From: Planctomycetota bacterium
GTDB lineage: Bacteria; Planctomycetota; JACQVV01; JASMLP01
NCBI GenBank assembly: GCA_030748635.1
Contig: JASMLP010000004.1
Location: forward strand, 1 to 64,000
Reading direction: 5' to 3'
DNA length: 64,000 nucleotides
Numbering within the stretch: position 1 is the first letter of the stretch; each line of letters opens with the position of its first letter. Positions 9,587-18,853 of the stretch are shown piece after piece. The notes beneath the pieces were generated by a model. The model saw nothing but the letters and a program-made list of their open reading frames with translations. It made no database searches and was not told where the DNA came from. A program made the position numbers and the translations under genes.

Positions 9587-12500
9587 TTAACGAAGCGCAG
9601 CCACCGCCCGTTGATAGTATTTTTCAGCTTTCTCGGTCTTTTTTTCACTCGCGGCCCGGGCCGCTAAAATCCGGTAAACCAAGGCCTGCGTCGGCCGATG
9701 ATCGCTACGACGAGCGATTCTTCGAGCCAGGGAGAGATAGGGAGCCACGCGACCCTCTTGCTTCTCGCTTTCCGCCAGAGAAGCGAGGTCGAGATAGAGC
9801 CCAGGAACCCTCCATTCGACCCCCAGTTCCGCGTGCAATCGCAAAGCGTCGTCCAGGTGCTCACCAGCCTCCTGGGAACGCCCTCTCTGCAATTCCAGTC
9901 GACCCAGAAGATGAGAACAGTCGGCCAATCCCCGAGAACATGAAAATGTCTGAAACCGAGCCCACGCATCCCGAGCCCAACGGTGCGCTTCCTCGATTTT
10001 CCCCTCGGCATCAGCGATCCACCCCAACCCTTGCATGAGAAAAGGGAGAACGAGAGCCTGACGATAATTTCGAGCCCGCTCCAAAGCGATCTCGTAGCTC
10101 GATCGAGCCTCATCCCAGCGCCCCCCGAGGAACGCCACCTCACCACGAAGACCGTACAAACCCACCTCGACACGGGGCTGTGATGAAACCGAAAGCGCGA
10201 CATTGACCCGACCGAGGAGACTTACCGAACGCGCCAATTCGCCTCGGGCCAGATGAACCCGGGCTTCGTCCAGAAGAAGAGAGGGCATCTCCTCTTGAAG
10301 ATCTTCTTCCAGCACCAGAACCCGAGCCTCCAAAAGATGAGCCAAGACCGATTGCCACTGCCCAAGATGAAATTCGATCGCGGCTCTGGCGCGATGCCAG
10401 CGAACCCCCAGAATCGCTCGTTCCAAGCCGACAGACACGATGCTATCCAGCAATCTGCGGGCCTCACCGTAACGATCGGAAAGAATCTCGGACTCCGCCC
10501 GGGCCAGGATAACCCACGGATCGGAATCGAACCCGGGTGGACTCGCACGCAACAGATCCAGTCGAGCTTCCACTACCTCTCCCCCCTGAAAACGAGCCCG
10601 GCCGATCGCCGACCCCAACGCCAAACTGGGACTTTTCCCCAGGGCCTGAGTCTGCCTCAAAACCTGATCCAAGATCTCTCTCGATCGAAGAACACCCCCA
10701 GACTCCAACTCGATTTCGCCCAGCAGACGCTGAACTTCCAGAATTGACAATTTTGGATCGTCAATGGGCGCTGTTTCATCTCCGACATTCACCGGAGCCG
10801 GATCCGGAGCCTTCTTCTCGACAAAAGGGTGAAAGAACTCCCGAGCCTCCAAAAACCGCCCCTGCGAAAAGGCGTGTCGCGCCGCCATTCCCCGATACAG
10901 GTAAGATTTATCCTGCATGCCACACCCCGAGGCATGGCGAACCAGATCCGCGGCAACCTCCTCCAAATGATCCGAACTAGTGTCCTCCATTCGCTGAAGT
11001 ATCCGGGCATGGACCTCCTTGCGCTGAAGCTCACTGAGCGATTCCACACACATCTCCCGCACAGACGCGCAGGGAAAACGGTACCGAGAAATCCCTCGAA
11101 CCTCCTGAACCGTTAGCAGATTTTTTTCCAGAAACGGACGGATCTTTTCGAGTAATCCCCGAGAATCTTCCCGAGAAACATGCACCATATCTTCGAGTGT
11201 CATCGGCATCGAAAGCAAAGCCAAGGTACCGAGGAGTTCACGACTCGCCCCCTCGAACTCAGCCAGAGAATCTACCCATTGCTTTTCCAGTCGTTTCGAA
11301 AAGAGCCCCTCTGGATAGGCTCCTTTCCCAAATCCGAGCATTTCCCAACAGCCCGCTCGCCCCTCCACCATCCACCCCAAGCGATAGGCTTCCTTCACGA
11401 ACGAAATCACATCGACTGGGTACGGCGAATACAAAGAGCAAAGCTCTCCCGCCAGTTCGACATTCACCCGGTCGGTACCCAAAACCTGCTCAAACAGCTC
11501 CAGAATCTCCCCATGAGAAAGTTCACGATCTATATCTTTCGAGTCGCCGGAGACCCAACGTTCAAGCCGTCGAGATTCGGACCGATTTTCATGATATATC
11601 TCCAGATCTTTACGAAGACGCTCCTGAAAACTTTCCATATGAGCCGAAAACAGAACACTTCGCTGATCTGGTCGGACCTCGATCGACCCACACTGGGGAC
11701 AAACTCCACCGCCACCCGCACGCACCGGACCCGAAACGTTGAAACTTGCTCCACATCCGATGCATTCGTATAAACTTTGCCGCTGACAGGCCAGAATCTC
11801 GAGAACATCATCGGAAGTCAGAACTCCCATCTCCGTCAGAATCTCTCCCAAACGACGAGCGGGAGCCCCGCCCTCTCCCACACTCACCTCTTGAGCCTGC
11901 CGCCGCAACGCTCGACGCACTTCCTCCGGAGCGGCGCGGGCCAGACGAATAGCGAGACGCCCAAATGAAGTCTCCCCGGTTCGAAGCCCCTGAATGACAG
12001 GAGAGGGCCGAGCGCTACGAACCGCGCGCAACCTCAAGCAGTCTGCCAGCTGCGAACGAGTCATCATGCCCTCCTGAACCAGGACCTCTCCCAGCGGAAT
12101 AGGCTCCGAATACGTAGCCTGAATCTGAAGAGCCGTGTAAAGCTGTTCTCGACTCAAGAAAGACTGTTCAACAGCAATCTCACCCAGAAGAAGAATCGCA
12201 GCGCCAGGGTCCGCCTCGACTGCTGACTCCTCCACCCGGGGTAGGGTCCGGACAGAATTTTCAAGTCCCTCCTCTTCTAGCAGAGCGAGAAGACGCTCCG
12301 CCGCTTCATCTCCATCTGCGGGCCGAGCCTCCCGATTCTTGGACAGCATATCCATAACGAGTGATTCAACCGAAAAAGGAAGATCAGGAACCTTCGGACC
12401 CAGTGGCGGAGGGTCATCTCGAACATGCTTATAAATCGTTTCCAGGTTGGTCTTCCCTTCAAAGGGCTTCGTACCCGAAAGAGTGATGTACGCGGTGACT

Positions 12501-13180
12501 CCAAGAGCATACACATCGACTCGAACATCCAACCCTCCCCCCTGAACCAACTCCGGAGCCATGAAAGCCGCCGTACCCACGATCTGGTCGGTACGTGTCA
12601 AATCATCCACCCCTTCCACTCGCACCAAGCCAAAGTCGAGGACCTTCACTCCTCCGTCCTCGGTGAGCATGATATTTCCAGGCTTCACATCCCGATGAAT
12701 CACTGGTGGCAACTGACGGTGCGCCGCTCCCAGTCCTCGTGCGGCCTGAGAAAGAACATTTACCGCCTTTTTCCACGGAAGAGCTCCCCCCTGCTGAACC
12801 CTCTCGGTGAGCGTTTCGCCACGCAGCAACTCCATCACCAGATAGTGCTCTCTCTCGGTCCTCCCGATACCCAAAATCCGCACCACATTGGGGTGTTCTA
12901 TCTGTGCTCCGAGTCGAGCCTCACGCTGGAATCGTTCGATATCCTGCTCACGGATCGTGGCAGAAATCGGCAAAACCTTGACCGCGACATCTTTTTCTAG
13001 CGTTCGATGGGATGCCCGAAAGACGATCCCCATCCCTCCCCTTCCGATCTCCTCCTTGAGCAAGCAAGCCCCGAGAGTACGGCCAATGTACTGGTCCGAT
13101 CGGCTTCCAGAGCCGGAATCTGAATTGGAAGATCGAGACACAAAACGCTCCACAGAAAGTAAGTCACGAGAACTACCCAT
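9587..13180 (-). CDS. Serine/threonine protein kinase with MshEN-like repeats, zinc ribbon and C-terminal TPR/MalT-like helical repeats
   Basis: GRGGMGIVFRA, VIHRDVKPGNIMLTEDGGVKVLDFGLV; RLGEILTEMGVLTSDDVLEILACQRQ; CIGCGASF...CPQCGS; long helical repeat C-terminus. Confidence 0.9.
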   Translation of the reverse strand: MGSSRDLLSVERFVSRSSNSDSGSGSRSDQYIGRTLGACLLKEEIGRGGMGIVFRASHRTLEKDVAVKVLPISATIREQDIERFQREARLGAQIEHPNVVRILGIGRTEREHYLVMELLRGETLTERVQQGGALPWKKAVNVLSQAARGLGAAHRQLPPVIHRDVKPGNIMLTEDGGVKVLDFGLVRVEGVDDLTRTDQIVGTAAFMAPELVQGGGLDVRVDVYALGVTAYITLSGTKPFEGKTNLETIYKHVRDDPPPLGPKVPDLPFSVESLVMDMLSKNREARPADGDEAAERLLALLEEEGLENSVRTLPRVEESAVEADPGAAILLLGEIAVEQSFLSREQLYTALQIQATYSEPIPLGEVLVQEGMMTRSQLADCLRLRAVRSARPSPVIQGLRTGETSFGRLAIRLARAAPEEVRRALRRQAQEVSVGEGGAPARRLGEILTEMGVLTSDDVLEILACQRQSLYECIGCGASFNVSGPVRAGGGGVCPQCGSIEVRPDQRSVLFSAHMESFQERLRKDLEIYHENRSESRRLERWVSGDSKDIDRELSHGEILELFEQVLGTDRVNVELAGELCSLYSPYPVDVISFVKEAYRLGWMVEGRAGCWEMLGFGKGAYPEGLFSKRLEKQWVDSLAEFEGASRELLGTLALLSMPMTLEDMVHVSREDSRGLLEKIRPFLEKNLLTVQEVRGISRYRFPCASVREMCVESLSELQRKEVHARILQRMEDTSSDHLEEVAADLVRHASGCGMQDKSYLYRGMAARHAFSQGRFLEAREFFHPFVEKKAPDPAPVNVGDETAPIDDPKLSILEVQRLLGEIELESGGVLRSREILDQVLRQTQALGKSPSLALGSAIGRARFQGGEVVEARLDLLRASPPGFDSDPWVILARAESEILSDRYGEARRLLDSIVSVGLERAILGVRWHRARAAIEFHLGQWQSVLAHLLEARVLVLEEDLQEEMPSLLLDEARVHLARGELARSVSLLGRVNVALSVSSQPRVEVGLYGLRGEVAFLGGRWDEARSSYEIALERARNYRQALVLPFLMQGLGWIADAEGKIEEAHRWARDAWARFQTFSCSRGLADCSHLLGRLELQRGRSQEAGEHLDDALRLHAELGVEWRVPGLYLDLASLAESEKQEGRVAPYLSLARRIARRSDHRPTQALVYRILAARAASEKKTEKAEKYYQRAVAALR

Positions 13181-13270
13181 GAACCTGATTCCGGACTATA
13201 ATAAAAATACGTAGGCAATTGGAGTGCATTAGAAGATCGGACCAAGGAAGGTTCGGAGGGGAGTTATGTC

Positions 13271-13972
13271 ATGAGCCTGGAAGCCATCCAGGCCACGATT
13301 CGAGTTGAACGTGCGTCTCGGGTGCGCCGAACGCTCGTACCGAGAATCCAGCAAGAGGCCGCCAACAAACCGGTACAAGACGCACGGGACGCTTTCGAAG
13401 CGGAAGTGGCCCGCCGTCAGATCCCTATCTCCCTGCGTCACATCGAGGAAGAAATCCGTCACGTCGGCCGCAACCTCGTTTCCCTTCTCGACGTACGAGA
13501 ACGCCTCGAGCGGGCGCAACCGGAACTGGAACGCATGGCTCGAATCACCGAAAGAGCCACTCAGGACATCGATGAAACCGAGCGGAGTGTTTTGACCGCC
13601 CTCGTGAACGAAGCCAGCCAGCGAATCGCCGTCGATCTTCCTGAAGAGGAAGGACTCCAGGACCTCCTCGAATGGATCGATCTGGATTCCCCCGAAAATA
13701 TCCACCGAAGCCAGCAAACCATCGATCGTCTTCGGAGTCGACTGACTGGTCACCAGGAACAATTCGATGCCGTGCGCGACGAACTTCTCGATGACCTGGC
13801 CTACTTCTCCCACGAACGTCGACTTCATTTCGACCCAGCACACCAACTTCCTGCCACGTCGCTGGAGCAGGAAGCCCGAGACCTTGCCCTCCAATTGACC
13901 GAAGACCCTCTTTCTGCCCGTCGAGCCCAGGCCCATATCCCACGTGGCGTGGCTCTTCATCTTCTCGACTGA
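13271..13972 (+). CDS. Putative divergent flagellin-like protein
   Basis: LERAQPELERMARITERATQDIDETERSVLTALVNEASQRI resembles flagellin N-terminal D1 (LxRMxxLxxQAxNGTxxDxDRxxxxxExxxLxxEI); IDRLRSRLTGHQEQFDAVRDEL and C-terminal AQAHIPRGVALHLLD resemble flagellin C-terminal D1/D0; followed directly by FliS-like gene. Confidence 0.5.
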   Translation: MSLEAIQATIRVERASRVRRTLVPRIQQEAANKPVQDARDAFEAEVARRQIPISLRHIEEEIRHVGRNLVSLLDVRERLERAQPELERMARITERATQDIDETERSVLTALVNEASQRIAVDLPEEEGLQDLLEWIDLDSPENIHRSQQTIDRLRSRLTGHQEQFDAVRDELLDDLAYFSHERRLHFDPAHQLPATSLEQEARDLALQLTEDPLSARRAQAHIPRGVALHLLD

Positions 13973-13975
13973 ACC

Positions 13976-14365
13976 ATGCCTTCAACCCCACCCACCATCC
14001 GCCCTCGCGCTGCCCGCGGGTACCGTCGTATCTCGATCCTCACCGCCGAACCGGCCAAGGTCATCATGGAACTCCTTCAGGGAGCCATCACCTCCCTGTC
14101 ACAGGCTAACCGTGAGGGATCCATTCACCCGGAACTCGACGTGGCACGAGCTCTTTCAATCGTAGGTGAACTGGATCTGTTTCTCGATTTTGACTCCGAG
14201 CCTCAGGTCGCCAAGAACTTCATGACCCTGTACGCTCACCTGCGACAACGACTAGGGCCTTGCTGCAGAAAATTCGACCCCGAAGTTTCGAAAGAAGTCC
14301 TCTCGGTACTCTCGATTTTGAAAGAAGGGTGGGTCGAGGTACACCGCAAAAGAGAGCGTCGATAA
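13976..14365 (+). CDS. FliS-like flagellin chaperone family protein
   Basis: ILTAEPAKVIMELLQGAITSLSQA...ARALSIVGELDLFLDFDSEPQVAKNFMTLYAHLRQRL...VLSILKEGWVEVH aligns along the full FliS fold. Confidence 0.7.
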   Translation: MPSTPPTIRPRAARGYRRISILTAEPAKVIMELLQGAITSLSQANREGSIHPELDVARALSIVGELDLFLDFDSEPQVAKNFMTLYAHLRQRLGPCCRKFDPEVSKEVLSVLSILKEGWVEVHRKRERR

Positions 14366-14404
14366 GCGGATTTCCCGACAAGCGGTGTATTCTCTCCTCG
14401 AGTC

Positions 14405-15475
14405 CTACACCACGCGCACGAGCCAGTTGTGCCGATCTTCTGCCCGACCTCTCTGGATATCACACAACGTCCGATAGAGCGTGCTGGTAATCGATTCCGG
14501 TCCTCCGACAGGAACCTCATGTTGCTGACCCTTGTGCAAGATCATCCCCACAGGTGTAACCACAGCGGCCGTTCCGCAAGCGAAGATCTCCGTGACCCGC
14601 CCCTCAGCGACTCCAGACAGGACCTCATCGATAGCCAGTTGCCGTTCCTCGAACCCGACTCCATGATCCTCACAGAGAATACGAATCGAATCCCGAGTTC
14701 CGCCCGAAAGGATGGTGCCGCCTAATGGCGCGGTGCACACCACCCCATCCACAACGAACATGACATTCATTCCACCCATCTCTTCAACGTATCGACGTTC
14801 CTGAGCGTCGAGCCACAAAACCTGCTCACATCCGGACTCGCTCGCCGTTTTCTGGGCCAGAAGACTCGCGGCGTAATTGCCGGCGGTCTTGGCTTCTCCC
14901 ATCCCCCCCTTGCAGGCCCGCACAAAATCTTGACTCGTCGCGATCTTTACCGGCTTCCAACCATCCTTGAAGTAACTTCCGACCGGACTCAAGATGATGT
15001 AATAGAGGTATTCGGTCGACGAACGCACCCCCAGAACCGCTTCGGTCGCGATCATATTGGGACGAAGATACAAAGCCCCTTCTCCTCCGGGGACCCAGTC
15101 CTGCTCGAGCTCGACGAGACGCTTCATGGCCTCCAAATTCGCCTGAACATTCAGTTCCGGCATGCACAACCTGCGAGCCGACCGGTTGAGCCTCTCACAG
15201 TTGTATTCGGGTCGAAAAAGATGGATCGATCCATCCTCGTGACGAAACGCCTTGAGCCCCTCGAACACCTCCTGGCCGTAGTGCAACACCAAAGAGGCTG
15301 GGTCCATCGAAAAAGGGGCGTAAGGCTCGATACACGAATTTTGCCAGCCCTGATCCGGCGTCCATCGAGAAGTGAACATATTGGCGGTAAAGTACTTCCC
15401 GAACCCCAGGGTCCTTGGATCCAAATCGATGTCCGGATTTTTGTTTACGGCACGATCGATAATCTCCATGCGCAT
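14405..15475 (-). CDS. ilvE: Branched-chain amino acid aminotransferase
   Basis: YGQEVFEGLKAFRHEDGSIHLFRP, KTAGNYAASL, EEMGGMNVMFV; AGGAAGGAG Shine-Dalgarno before MRMEIID; ORF upstream extension to 16180 judged spurious. Confidence 0.9.
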   Translation of the reverse strand: MRMEIIDRAVNKNPDIDLDPRTLGFGKYFTANMFTSRWTPDQGWQNSCIEPYAPFSMDPASLVLHYGQEVFEGLKAFRHEDGSIHLFRPEYNCERLNRSARRLCMPELNVQANLEAMKRLVELEQDWVPGGEGALYLRPNMIATEAVLGVRSSTEYLYYIILSPVGSYFKDGWKPVKIATSQDFVRACKGGMGEAKTAGNYAASLLAQKTASESGCEQVLWLDAQERRYVEEMGGMNVMFVVDGVVCTAPLGGTILSGGTRDSIRILCEDHGVGFEERQLAIDEVLSGVAEGRVTEIFACGTAAVVTPVGMILHKGQQHEVPVGGPESITSTLYRTLCDIQRGRAEDRHNWLVRVV

Positions 15476-15691: not shown

Positions 15692-18600
15692 ATGATGCCT
15701 CCTGAGAAGCCCCTTCCCATCACGGTCCACGAGGACCTCTTCCTGCGCATCGCGCTGAGAAAAGGGCTCATGCCCAGCGAGTTCCTGACAACAGGACTCG
15801 AGGATGCCTACGAACAGGACGGTCGGCACATCGGACTTGTTCTCTTGCGTCAGCGATTGCTCGACACAGAAGACCTGCGAACCGTCTGTCGAGAAATCCA
15901 GAAGTTCTTGAGCTCCAAGGAATACGCCGATCGACTTCACGCTGAAGAAGAGCAAGTCGCGAAACAGATTGCGCGACGACAACTGATCCCCGAGAGGAGA
16001 CTCCAGGAGGTTCGGGGAGAACAAGAGTCCCTCCAGGAAAAAGGCCAGCCGTACAGCCTCGGGTTTCTCCTCATGGAAAAAGGCGATCTCGATCCGATTG
16101 AGTACCTCGAATTCTTCAAGGATACCCTTGTCGAGGAGTATCAAAGCGGCGTGATCCCGACAACTTCTCCTCAGAAGCAAATCGTGAGTTGTAGCGAGTG
16201 TAGCGCGCGATTCCGGGTCAAAAAATCTACTGAACGAAAAGGATTCCGCTGCTCTCGCTGCGGAAATACCGTACGAATCAATCGAGGCCAGAAGGACACG
16301 AAAGGCAGCGGTATCCTAACCGGAAAAACCACCCGGCAAACGCGGCCAACCAAACACAGAAAGCGAAAAGAAGCCCGTTCGTCCGCATTCGACAAGGAAA
16401 ATTTTGCCGGCTACCAGATCCTGGGAGAGATCGCCCGCGGAGGCATGGGAATCGTTTACAAAGCCTCACAAAAAAATCTCAACCGAATCGTCGCCCTGAA
16501 AATTCTCAAAGAAGGAGACCGAGCGACCAAAGCGTCGATCGAACGATTCATGCGAGAGGCCCGAGCGGCGGGAAAATTGCGACACCCCAACATCATTGCG
16601 GTTTATGAAGTGGATCGATTCCAGGGGGTTCCCTACTTTTCCATGGAGTACATCGAGGGAGACAGCCTAGACACGTTGATCAGTAAAAAACGGCTAGGCG
16701 TTCAAAAAAGCCTTGGACTCCTGATCGATGTGGCCAAGGCCGTTCATCATGCCCACAGCGAAGGGGTCATCCATCGGGATCTCAAGCCCGGAAACATCCT
16801 AGTCGATGCCGATGGGGCCGCCAAGATCACCGACTTCGGACTGGCAAAAAATACGGAAGTCAAAGGACGGTTGACTCGAAGCGGATTCGCCATCGGAACC
16901 CCTTATTACATGAGTCCGGAACAGGCAAGAGGAGATCTCAAGCGAATCGGAGCCCGGTCGGATGTCTACAATCTCGGTGTTATTCTCTATGAATGCCTTA
17001 CCGGACGGGTTCCCTTTACCGGAAGATCCAATGTCGAAATTTACGAAAAAATCCGCCACGAAGAGCCACGCCCACCTCGAGAGCACCAGCCCTCCGTTCC
17101 CAGGGACATCCAGACCATCTGCTTGCGGACGATAGAAAAAGACCCTTCAGCTCGATACCCGACCGCCCTCGACTTCGCAGAAGATATCGAACGATTTCTT
17201 GCCGGCGAACCGATCCAGGCCCGCCCGGTACCGATTCAGGCGCGCATCTTCAAAAAGATCGTCAAACACAAACTCGTCTCATCACTCGTTCTTCTGCTCG
17301 CTCTTGTGGTTATCGGCTCCGGAATGGCGATTTACTACTTCCAGTGGAAAACCGAAGAAGAAAGGGCCGATCGACAGCAAGGAAGTCTTGTCGATCAACA
17401 GAGAAAAAAACGAGAAGTCGAACGACTGCTTCGATCCGGGCAAGAAGCCATGGAGGAGTACCAGATCGAATCCGCCCTTCGATTCTTCCAACAGGCCTAC
17501 GACCTTCTTCCCAACCATCCAGCGACCCTGATAGAACGAGGAATCGCCTACTACTACCAGGGAGACCACCTGAGCGCTGTCGCGGACCTCGAAATCGCGG
17601 CCCAGAAAGCTCCAGGCAGAGTTCGAGCTCACTTTTTCCTCGGAACCGCTTATTCACGGCTGGGTCAATACGATCGATCCCTCGGCAAATTCAACCGGGC
17701 CATCGACCTCTCCCCCAAAGACGCGCGCATCTACTACTACCGTGGACAGTCCATGTTGGCCGTGGGAGAAGACCGCAAGGCGTTCAAGGACTGCAAAAAA
17801 GCCCTGGAACTCGACAAAAACTACTATTTGGCTCTTTGCTCCCGCGGACTTCTTTATCTCCTTCATGATTCGCACGAAAAAGCCCTCCAGAGTTTCCAGA
17901 AAGCGTCCGCCCTCCGCCCTCGAGATCCACGAGCCCACCTCCTTATCGGGATGACACACCTCCAGGCCCGACGTCCCCGACAAGCCATCATTCATCTTCA
18001 TCAGATGTCCAAAATAGAAACCGATTACAGTGAACCGCTCCCTCCTCACTATCGAGAAAAAACCGACGGAGGCCTCCTCTATAAAGCGGCTCGCTTGAGT
18101 CAACTCGAACCGATGCTCAGCCCCGACGAGTTCCTGGTCGAATCCAACTTCTGGAAGACTTTCGGCATGAACCCCCAGTCGGTTTCAGCTAAAAATCTGA
18201 TCCAGTCCATTCAAGTGGCTCTGGGCAATCTCATCTACAAAACCTATGCGGGACAATACGAACTGGCGATGAGTAACCTCTCGCTCGTTTTATACTTCGT
18301 CAAACCTCTCACTCAGTTTCTTCTCCACATGTCCGAAGAAGGAACTTCCTACATGGAAGAGTTTCATAACCTGACCGACCTCGAGGTTTACTATCTCTCT
18401 CGTTGCCTGATCCATCTAAAAAAATACGAACTGGCGGGCTCGACGATTGATCGGTACCTTCGAGAAACGACAACCGATTCCGCCATGCTACATGTCGCCC
18501 GAGGCCTCGCCCACGAGAGCATTCGGGGGCGCGAAGACCTGGCGCTCGACCAGTTCAACAAAGCCATCCGCAAAGACCCCGCAATCGCGCGGGCTTACGT

Positions 18601-18853
18601 CTTGAGAGGCCGCACCTATATGAATTCGCGACAGCAGACTCGGGCCCGGTCCGATTTCCTGAAAGCTCTTGAAATCGACCCCCTCCGCTACGAAGCTGCG
18701 TACTATCTGGGAAGAATGGCCCAAGAAAAAGGCGACACCGAAGGCCAGAGAAAGTGGTGGAAACAAGCGACCGAGCTTTGCCCGGATCTGATACGACTAC
18801 GAAGTCGCCTTTCACGAATTAAACCCCTCCCCAATACGGAGAAAAACCAATGA
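15692..18853 (+). CDS. Serine/threonine protein kinase with N-terminal MshEN-like repeats and zinc ribbon, TM helix, C-terminal TPR array
   Basis: [87 protein letters not shown]; multiple TPR motifs. Confidence 0.9.

Follow-up and report, generated by a model that had tools for sequence, protein, structure and literature searches.

Introduction

FliS is usually regarded as a chaperone for flagellin alone. To our knowledge, HP1076 of H. pylori is the one well-studied non-flagellin that meets FliS via flagellin-like features, and it is not known to be encoded beside fliS. Solved structures of FliS (PF02561) include 1ORY, 3IQC, 5MAW/6GOW and 6CH3. The D0-C region of flagellin wraps FliS as an extended horseshoe; FliS in turn docks on FlhA through its N-terminus, in Salmonella with Tyr10 (PMC6070490). 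HP1076 is a flagellin-D1-like protein with an affinity for FliS of about 15 nM; it is a competitor of flagellin and not a FliS client (PMC7248283).

In this work, a two-gene locus of a planctomycete was compared with these systems. An earlier note on the DNA had read it as a cryptic flagellin-FliS pair. The FliS of the locus is like known FliS in sequence family, four-helix fold and N-terminal tyrosine, and modelling predicts that its groove would take a D0-C-like tail as a flagellin-type groove does. It differs in belonging to a clade with a long stem, in scoring under the NCBIfam cut-off and in being linked to a partner gene rather than lying downstream of fliD. The partner is like flagellin in its last ~30 residues, which keep the same register and end at the exact C-terminus, and in a suggestive D1-C stretch. 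However, it lacks D0-N, the LSSGLRIN segment, a D1-N signal and a Pfam match, and it has only 233 residues. Like HP1076 it is a small helical non-flagellin with flagellin-like features, here predicted to serve FliS binding, but HP1076 is described as a mimic of the D1 contact, whereas the partner would mimic the D0-C tail and its gene is probably coupled to fliS. The closest structural counterpart, 4IWB, is an artificial fusion of a genuine flagellin tail with FliS.

Gene pair and genomic context

The window, that is the whole stretch of 64,000 nucleotides that was analysed, contains the following features:

13255..13263, + strand: Shine-Dalgarno-like GGAGGGGAG, read off the sequence, ending 7 nt 5' of the ATG of the 233-aa gene
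13271..13972, + strand: gene of the 233-aa FliS partner, mostly helical and outside known families (codon-position GC; homologue)
13271..13330, + strand: conserved N-terminal 20 residues of the partner, MSLEAxxxxIxxERxxxxRR, 10/20 identical between the two members
13694..13831, + strand: long predicted helix of the partner, residues about 142-187, suggestively D1-C-like (AF2 helix 141-186 at low confidence; weak 9atb_A alignment)
13877..13966, + strand: flagellin D0-C-like tail of the partner, residues 203-232, predicted FliS-binding segment (sequence PSSM and profiles; docked model like 4IWB)
13976..14365, + strand: gene of the FliS paralogue, 129 aa (PF02561 profile, FliS fold, divergent clade)
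14021..14023, + strand: Tyr16 of the FliS paralogue, the near-invariant N-terminal tyrosine (near-invariant alignment column)

The ORF list and the sequence bear out the reported layout of two ORFs on the same strand with a TGA-to-ATG gap of 3 nt, and both ORFs stand in one shared reading frame. Because the Shine-Dalgarno-like element ahead of the first gene is strong and none is evident on inspection of the sequence ahead of the fliS gene, it is likely that the two genes are translationally coupled. The homologue of the 233-aa gene, described below, has a purine-rich GAGAGGGGAACC ahead of its ATG. The codon-position GC pattern of the 233-aa frame matches that of the neighbouring genes, and with the homologue this makes the antisense ORF at 13229-13960 most likely spurious. 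Within 13100-14450 there was no sigma-70 promoter-like site, and the window as a whole gave no sigma-28-like motif.

The divergent gene next to the pair encodes, as had been noticed, a Ser/Thr kinase (1197 aa, Pfam). The pair is in fact flanked by two giant Ser/Thr kinases with TPRs, at 9587-13180 (-) and 15692-18853 (+), and in both of them Pkinase and TPRs occur together with a zinc-ribbon-like segment. By eye, a short stretch of GEIAVEQSFLSREQL type in the first kinase recurs in the proteins of L064:6295-7569 and L064:9769-12660 of the same genome, and a branched-chain aminotransferase-like gene was recognised by eye in the neighbourhood.

FliS paralogue

The assignment of the 129-aa product to FliS was confirmed by PF02561 (E 6.4e-15, 55.9 bits against a cut-off of 26.7), the match spanning residues 15-122 and profile positions 3-114 of 115; solved FliS chains were also matched in the PDB sequence search. 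In the AlphaFold model the FliS part has a pLDDT above 95, and its four-helix FliS fold matches 3k1i, 5maw, 6lea and 1ory with TM 0.76-0.85 by target length (Foldseek). On the other hand, the NCBIfam equivalog fliS TIGR00208 gave 36.7 bits, under its cut-off of 53.75, and the window FliS is therefore divergent: by sequence it is a member of the family whose functional equivalence to canonical FliS is not supported by TIGR00208. Its Tyr16 is probably the equivalent of Salmonella Tyr10.

In a tree of 23 FliS sequences, the window FliS and the FliS adjacent to the homologue form a long-stemmed clade with support of 100/95; the FliD-linked FliS which the second genome carries in addition falls outside it. 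Since the FliS copies form a clade of their own, chaperone and partner have apparently travelled together, and this clade, as judged from sequence, favours a dedicated pair. A second FliS per genome may perhaps not be novel in itself; the literature matches concern Pseudomonas and Clostridioides. In the window's own genome (an assembly of 217 contigs, 93.7% complete) this FliS was the only match at E<=0.001. If it is the sole FliS of the genome, a purely dedicated role is disfavoured, because the six flagellins found on other contigs would need FliS too.

Partner protein

The 233-aa protein has no family in Pfam, NCBIfam or PDB sequence searches. It contains 31 Arg, one Lys and no Cys and has a net charge near -13. 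A search through 59 relatives, with up to 48 candidates scored per genome, yielded one homologue (L010:236-952) in a groundwater Planctomycetota MAG of the same order and another family, with 30% identity over the full length (E 8e-13). As in the window, the homologue gene immediately precedes a fliS gene. Most of the other planctomycetes checked have a FliD-sized gene 5' of fliS, and in one case a true flagellin stands there. A profile search over 392 genomes of the phylum found only the two members, a weak negative given that at most seven candidates were scored per genome. Furthermore, a scan of genome contigs gave no matches with the 233-aa protein as query and only the known homologue with the pair as query. 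Because a second family also has the pair, and the FliS copies of the pair cluster apart from the FliD-linked copy, FliS and its partner are best regarded as a lineage-specific unit. Between the two members identity is 10/20 at the N-end and 13/22 at the C-end, and 45/187 in the middle; the conserved N-terminal 20 residues could possibly be an export signal.

The earlier note had taken the 233-aa protein for a highly degenerate flagellin, and over its whole length this reading is rejected on the basis of the profile and PDB searches and of the negative D0-N and D1-N tests. No flagellin was matched in Pfam (PF00669/PF00700, E<=10), NCBIfam or PDB; the homologue had no Pfam flagellin match at E<=1, and neither protein is among the Flagellin_C matches in its respective genome. 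The segment LSSGLRINxAxDDAAG is absent, as had been observed, and an anchored N-terminal PSSM gave no significant D0-N match (p 0.16 for the window protein, 0.02 for the other member), with the N-terminal profile showing no signal. The proposed D1-N block starting with LERMARITERATQDIDETERSVL had to be given up, since 13,260/20,000 shuffles score equally high. The IDRLRSRLTGHQEQFDAVRDEL block does align with flagellin D1-C (profile against 9atb_A), although at a non-significant E of 0.16. When the tail is removed one flagellin remains, 9atb_A at E 0.6, so the D1-C-like stretch is merely suggestive.

The tail is a different matter. A PSSM anchored on the C-terminal LL was built from the flagellins of planctomycetes, 37 in all; an earlier one from nine flagellins gave the same picture. 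The homologue tail EEVRTRILADPGGASRAQANLPRGLVLSLL scored 17.1 (z 6.45), and 0/200,000 shuffles scored as high. It outscores every non-flagellin 30-mer among the 278,054 distinct ones compared, only real flagellins being higher, and also two Pfam-called flagellins from its own genome. The tail of the window protein is weaker (z 2.98, 547/200,000 shuffles). Thus, the D0-C resemblance proposed from the window sequence holds for the two-member family, whereas the window copy alone supports it weakly. When the two-member profile was searched against PDB sequences, the flagellins 9atb (E 0.16) and 9atl (E 0.27) ranked third and fourth, with alignments that reach the exact flagellin C-terminus. Charged helices are abundant in the 233-aa protein, and in the PDB profile search helical designs reach the scores of flagellin. 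Profile-profile comparison (hhalign) with the six flagellins of the genome placed the tail in the right register at a non-significant E of 0.27. No chain of HP1076 (3K1H/3K1I/6LEA) occurred among the E<=10 PDB matches of the 233-aa protein or of the two-member profile. We conclude that the core finding, a FliS beside a protein with a flagellin-type tail, conserved across two families, is real.

Predicted complex

The common reading frame allows the partner tail and FliS to be folded as a single chain. The fused chain was obtained by reading the TGA as Trp, which is purely a modelling device and is not put forward as what the cell does. The alignments for the structure models took FliS rows only, because MAFFT dragged the homologue onto the FliS half of the fused chain. 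In the full-length read-through model the partner was modelled poorly, with a tail pLDDT of 41-46 and docking that is not confident; helices are predicted at 55-97, 102-121 and 141-186. No flagellin occurs among the 50 Foldseek matches listed for this model. A shorter model, consisting of the last 43 partner residues and FliS, reached a mean pLDDT of 85 and a pTM of 0.76. Its tail forms helices at 5-21, 23-29 and 38-42, the first at pLDDT of about 76-87, and the AQAHIPRG core of the tail lies at about 56-68.

The best PDB matches of the short model are 4iwb_A/B, the FliC/FliS fusion (Foldseek E 2e-5, 176 columns, 22% identity), and they extend over the whole chain. The TM by query length is 0.73 for 4IWB against about 0.53 for FliS-only chains, and from this gap we estimate that some 35 residues of the tail coincide with the flagellin tail in the superposition. 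The alignment behind the short model contained neither flagellin nor the homologue tail, and recall of 4IWB by AlphaFold may underlie the docked model. Docking of the partner tail in the flagellin groove of FliS is accordingly a model prediction in which our confidence is moderate.

Flagellar genes of the genome

The statement that no flagellar genes are nearby holds for the neighbourhood examined and fails for the genome, where other contigs carry a full flagellar set. The genome-wide search for flagellar export genes found FlhA on another contig. The gene strings on contigs C209 and C14 comprise basal body, export apparatus, motor, hook and FlgK/FlgL, as judged from sequence reading and gene order; FlhA and a rod-binding protein in these strings were confirmed by profiles. 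Of six flagellins, five have Flagellin_N and one, cut at a contig end, was recognised through Flagellin_C; a sixth Flagellin_N match, on C14, is a flgL-like gene and was not counted as flagellin. FliW is present in both the window's genome and that of the homologue. Hence the idea that the pair stands apart from any flagellar system is not supported, and a cryptic flagellar system without a flagellum is rejected in view of the flagellar genes and flagellins on the other contigs.

Matches to FliD_C in the window's genome, on C135 and C69, are all under the cut-off, and the better of them reads as a coiled-coil membrane protein. An assembly gap could hide fliD.

Function of the pair

We hypothesize that the pair is a dedicated chaperone-partner unit of the ordinary flagellar system, the partner most likely being a non-filament export client whose tail wraps FliS, and we give this reading about an even chance. 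In this role or as the occupant described below, the pair would probably be a specialised offshoot of flagellar export or of its control. A divergent FliS paralogue and a small helical partner would work within the ordinary flagellar system of the cell. The C-terminal ~30 residues of the partner are predicted to imitate flagellin D0-C and to wrap FliS in the groove of flagellin, after which FliS would carry the partner to FlhA, the export gate, in the way that it carries flagellin. Since the partner is without an N-terminal D0 and the LSSGLRIN segment, it should not polymerise like flagellin; it is not a canonical flagellin, and the flagellar gene set of the organism is ordinary. The direction of any regulation by the pair is something that we can only infer.

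The strongest alternative, less likely though compatible with the same data, is that the partner stays in the cell and fills the FliS groove until flagellin displaces it, as a placeholder, a stabiliser or an anti-FliS regulator, with partner and FliS made 1:1 through translational coupling. The gene of HP1076 is not known to lie beside fliS, and no D0-C tail mimic has been reported for that protein. Moreover, the genome of the homologue has a separate FliD-linked FliS, so that a decoy would be encoded with a different FliS. Binding of HP1076 to FliS in competition with flagellin nevertheless sets a precedent (PMC7248283). The distance of 3 nt between the two genes, the presence of a single detectable fliS in a 94% complete genome and the lack of D0-N in the partner fit such an occupant, as does a tail match weaker than that of true flagellin, which a displaceable occupant should have.

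It is distinctly unlikely that the partner is an extremely diverged minimal flagellin, a minor filament subunit at a junction, cap or tip. The D0-C tail, the suggestive D1-C alignment and ends that are better conserved than the middle, a flagellin-like pattern, would suit it, and the lengths of the three predicted partner helices may recall those of flagellin D1. However, there is no LSSGLRIN-like segment, the D0-N test is non-significant, the D1-N signal is absent, and flagellin appears neither in Pfam nor among the 50 Foldseek matches listed. Most improbable of all is a tail likeness due to chance or composition in an unrelated coiled-coil protein that merely adjoins fliS: the modest window tail, the non-significant hhalign result, the abundance of charged helices and the flagellin-like scores of helical designs speak for it, but the homologue tail is the top non-flagellin 30-mer, matched by none of the shuffles and lying at the exact C-terminus, the gene immediately precedes fliS in both families and the docked model matches 4IWB.

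If the dedicated chaperone-partner unit is real, the FliS groove would represent a docking code open to acquisition by further proteins, and the partner would be a second FliS partner, unrelated to HP1076, which copies the D0-C tail and is tied genetically to its own FliS paralogue. More broadly, and with somewhat less than an even chance, a flagellated lineage of planctomycetes could have evolved a second FliS system built on a non-flagellin with a FliS-binding tail, either a new export client or a FliS-occupying gate on flagellin export. The pair is also a compact natural test of whether a tail and FliS suffice to route a non-flagellin to the export gate, and the finding gives meaning to two hypothetical genes from little-known planctomycetes.

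Other observations

Several flagellar loci showed further features. In the related genome there are two giant flagellins, of about 1390 aa (L060:3138-7310) and 1336 aa (L061:789-4799), and an unusually long FliD-type protein of 911 aa (L063:60-2795) ahead of the canonical FliS. On L052, a 202-aa gene without a Pfam match (L052:3-611, -) lies beside a flagellin pair and a TolB-like gene (L052:792-1823, +) that is 48% identical to the TolB-like gene beside fliD-fliS in the related genome; this locus may mark a former canonical fliD-fliS site, or fliD-fliS may lie beyond the contig end. In the window's genome, a gene shortly 3' of flgL (L056:8994-9620) encodes a product of 208 aa that has a bacterial microcompartment (BMC) domain, and fliW follows on the opposite strand.
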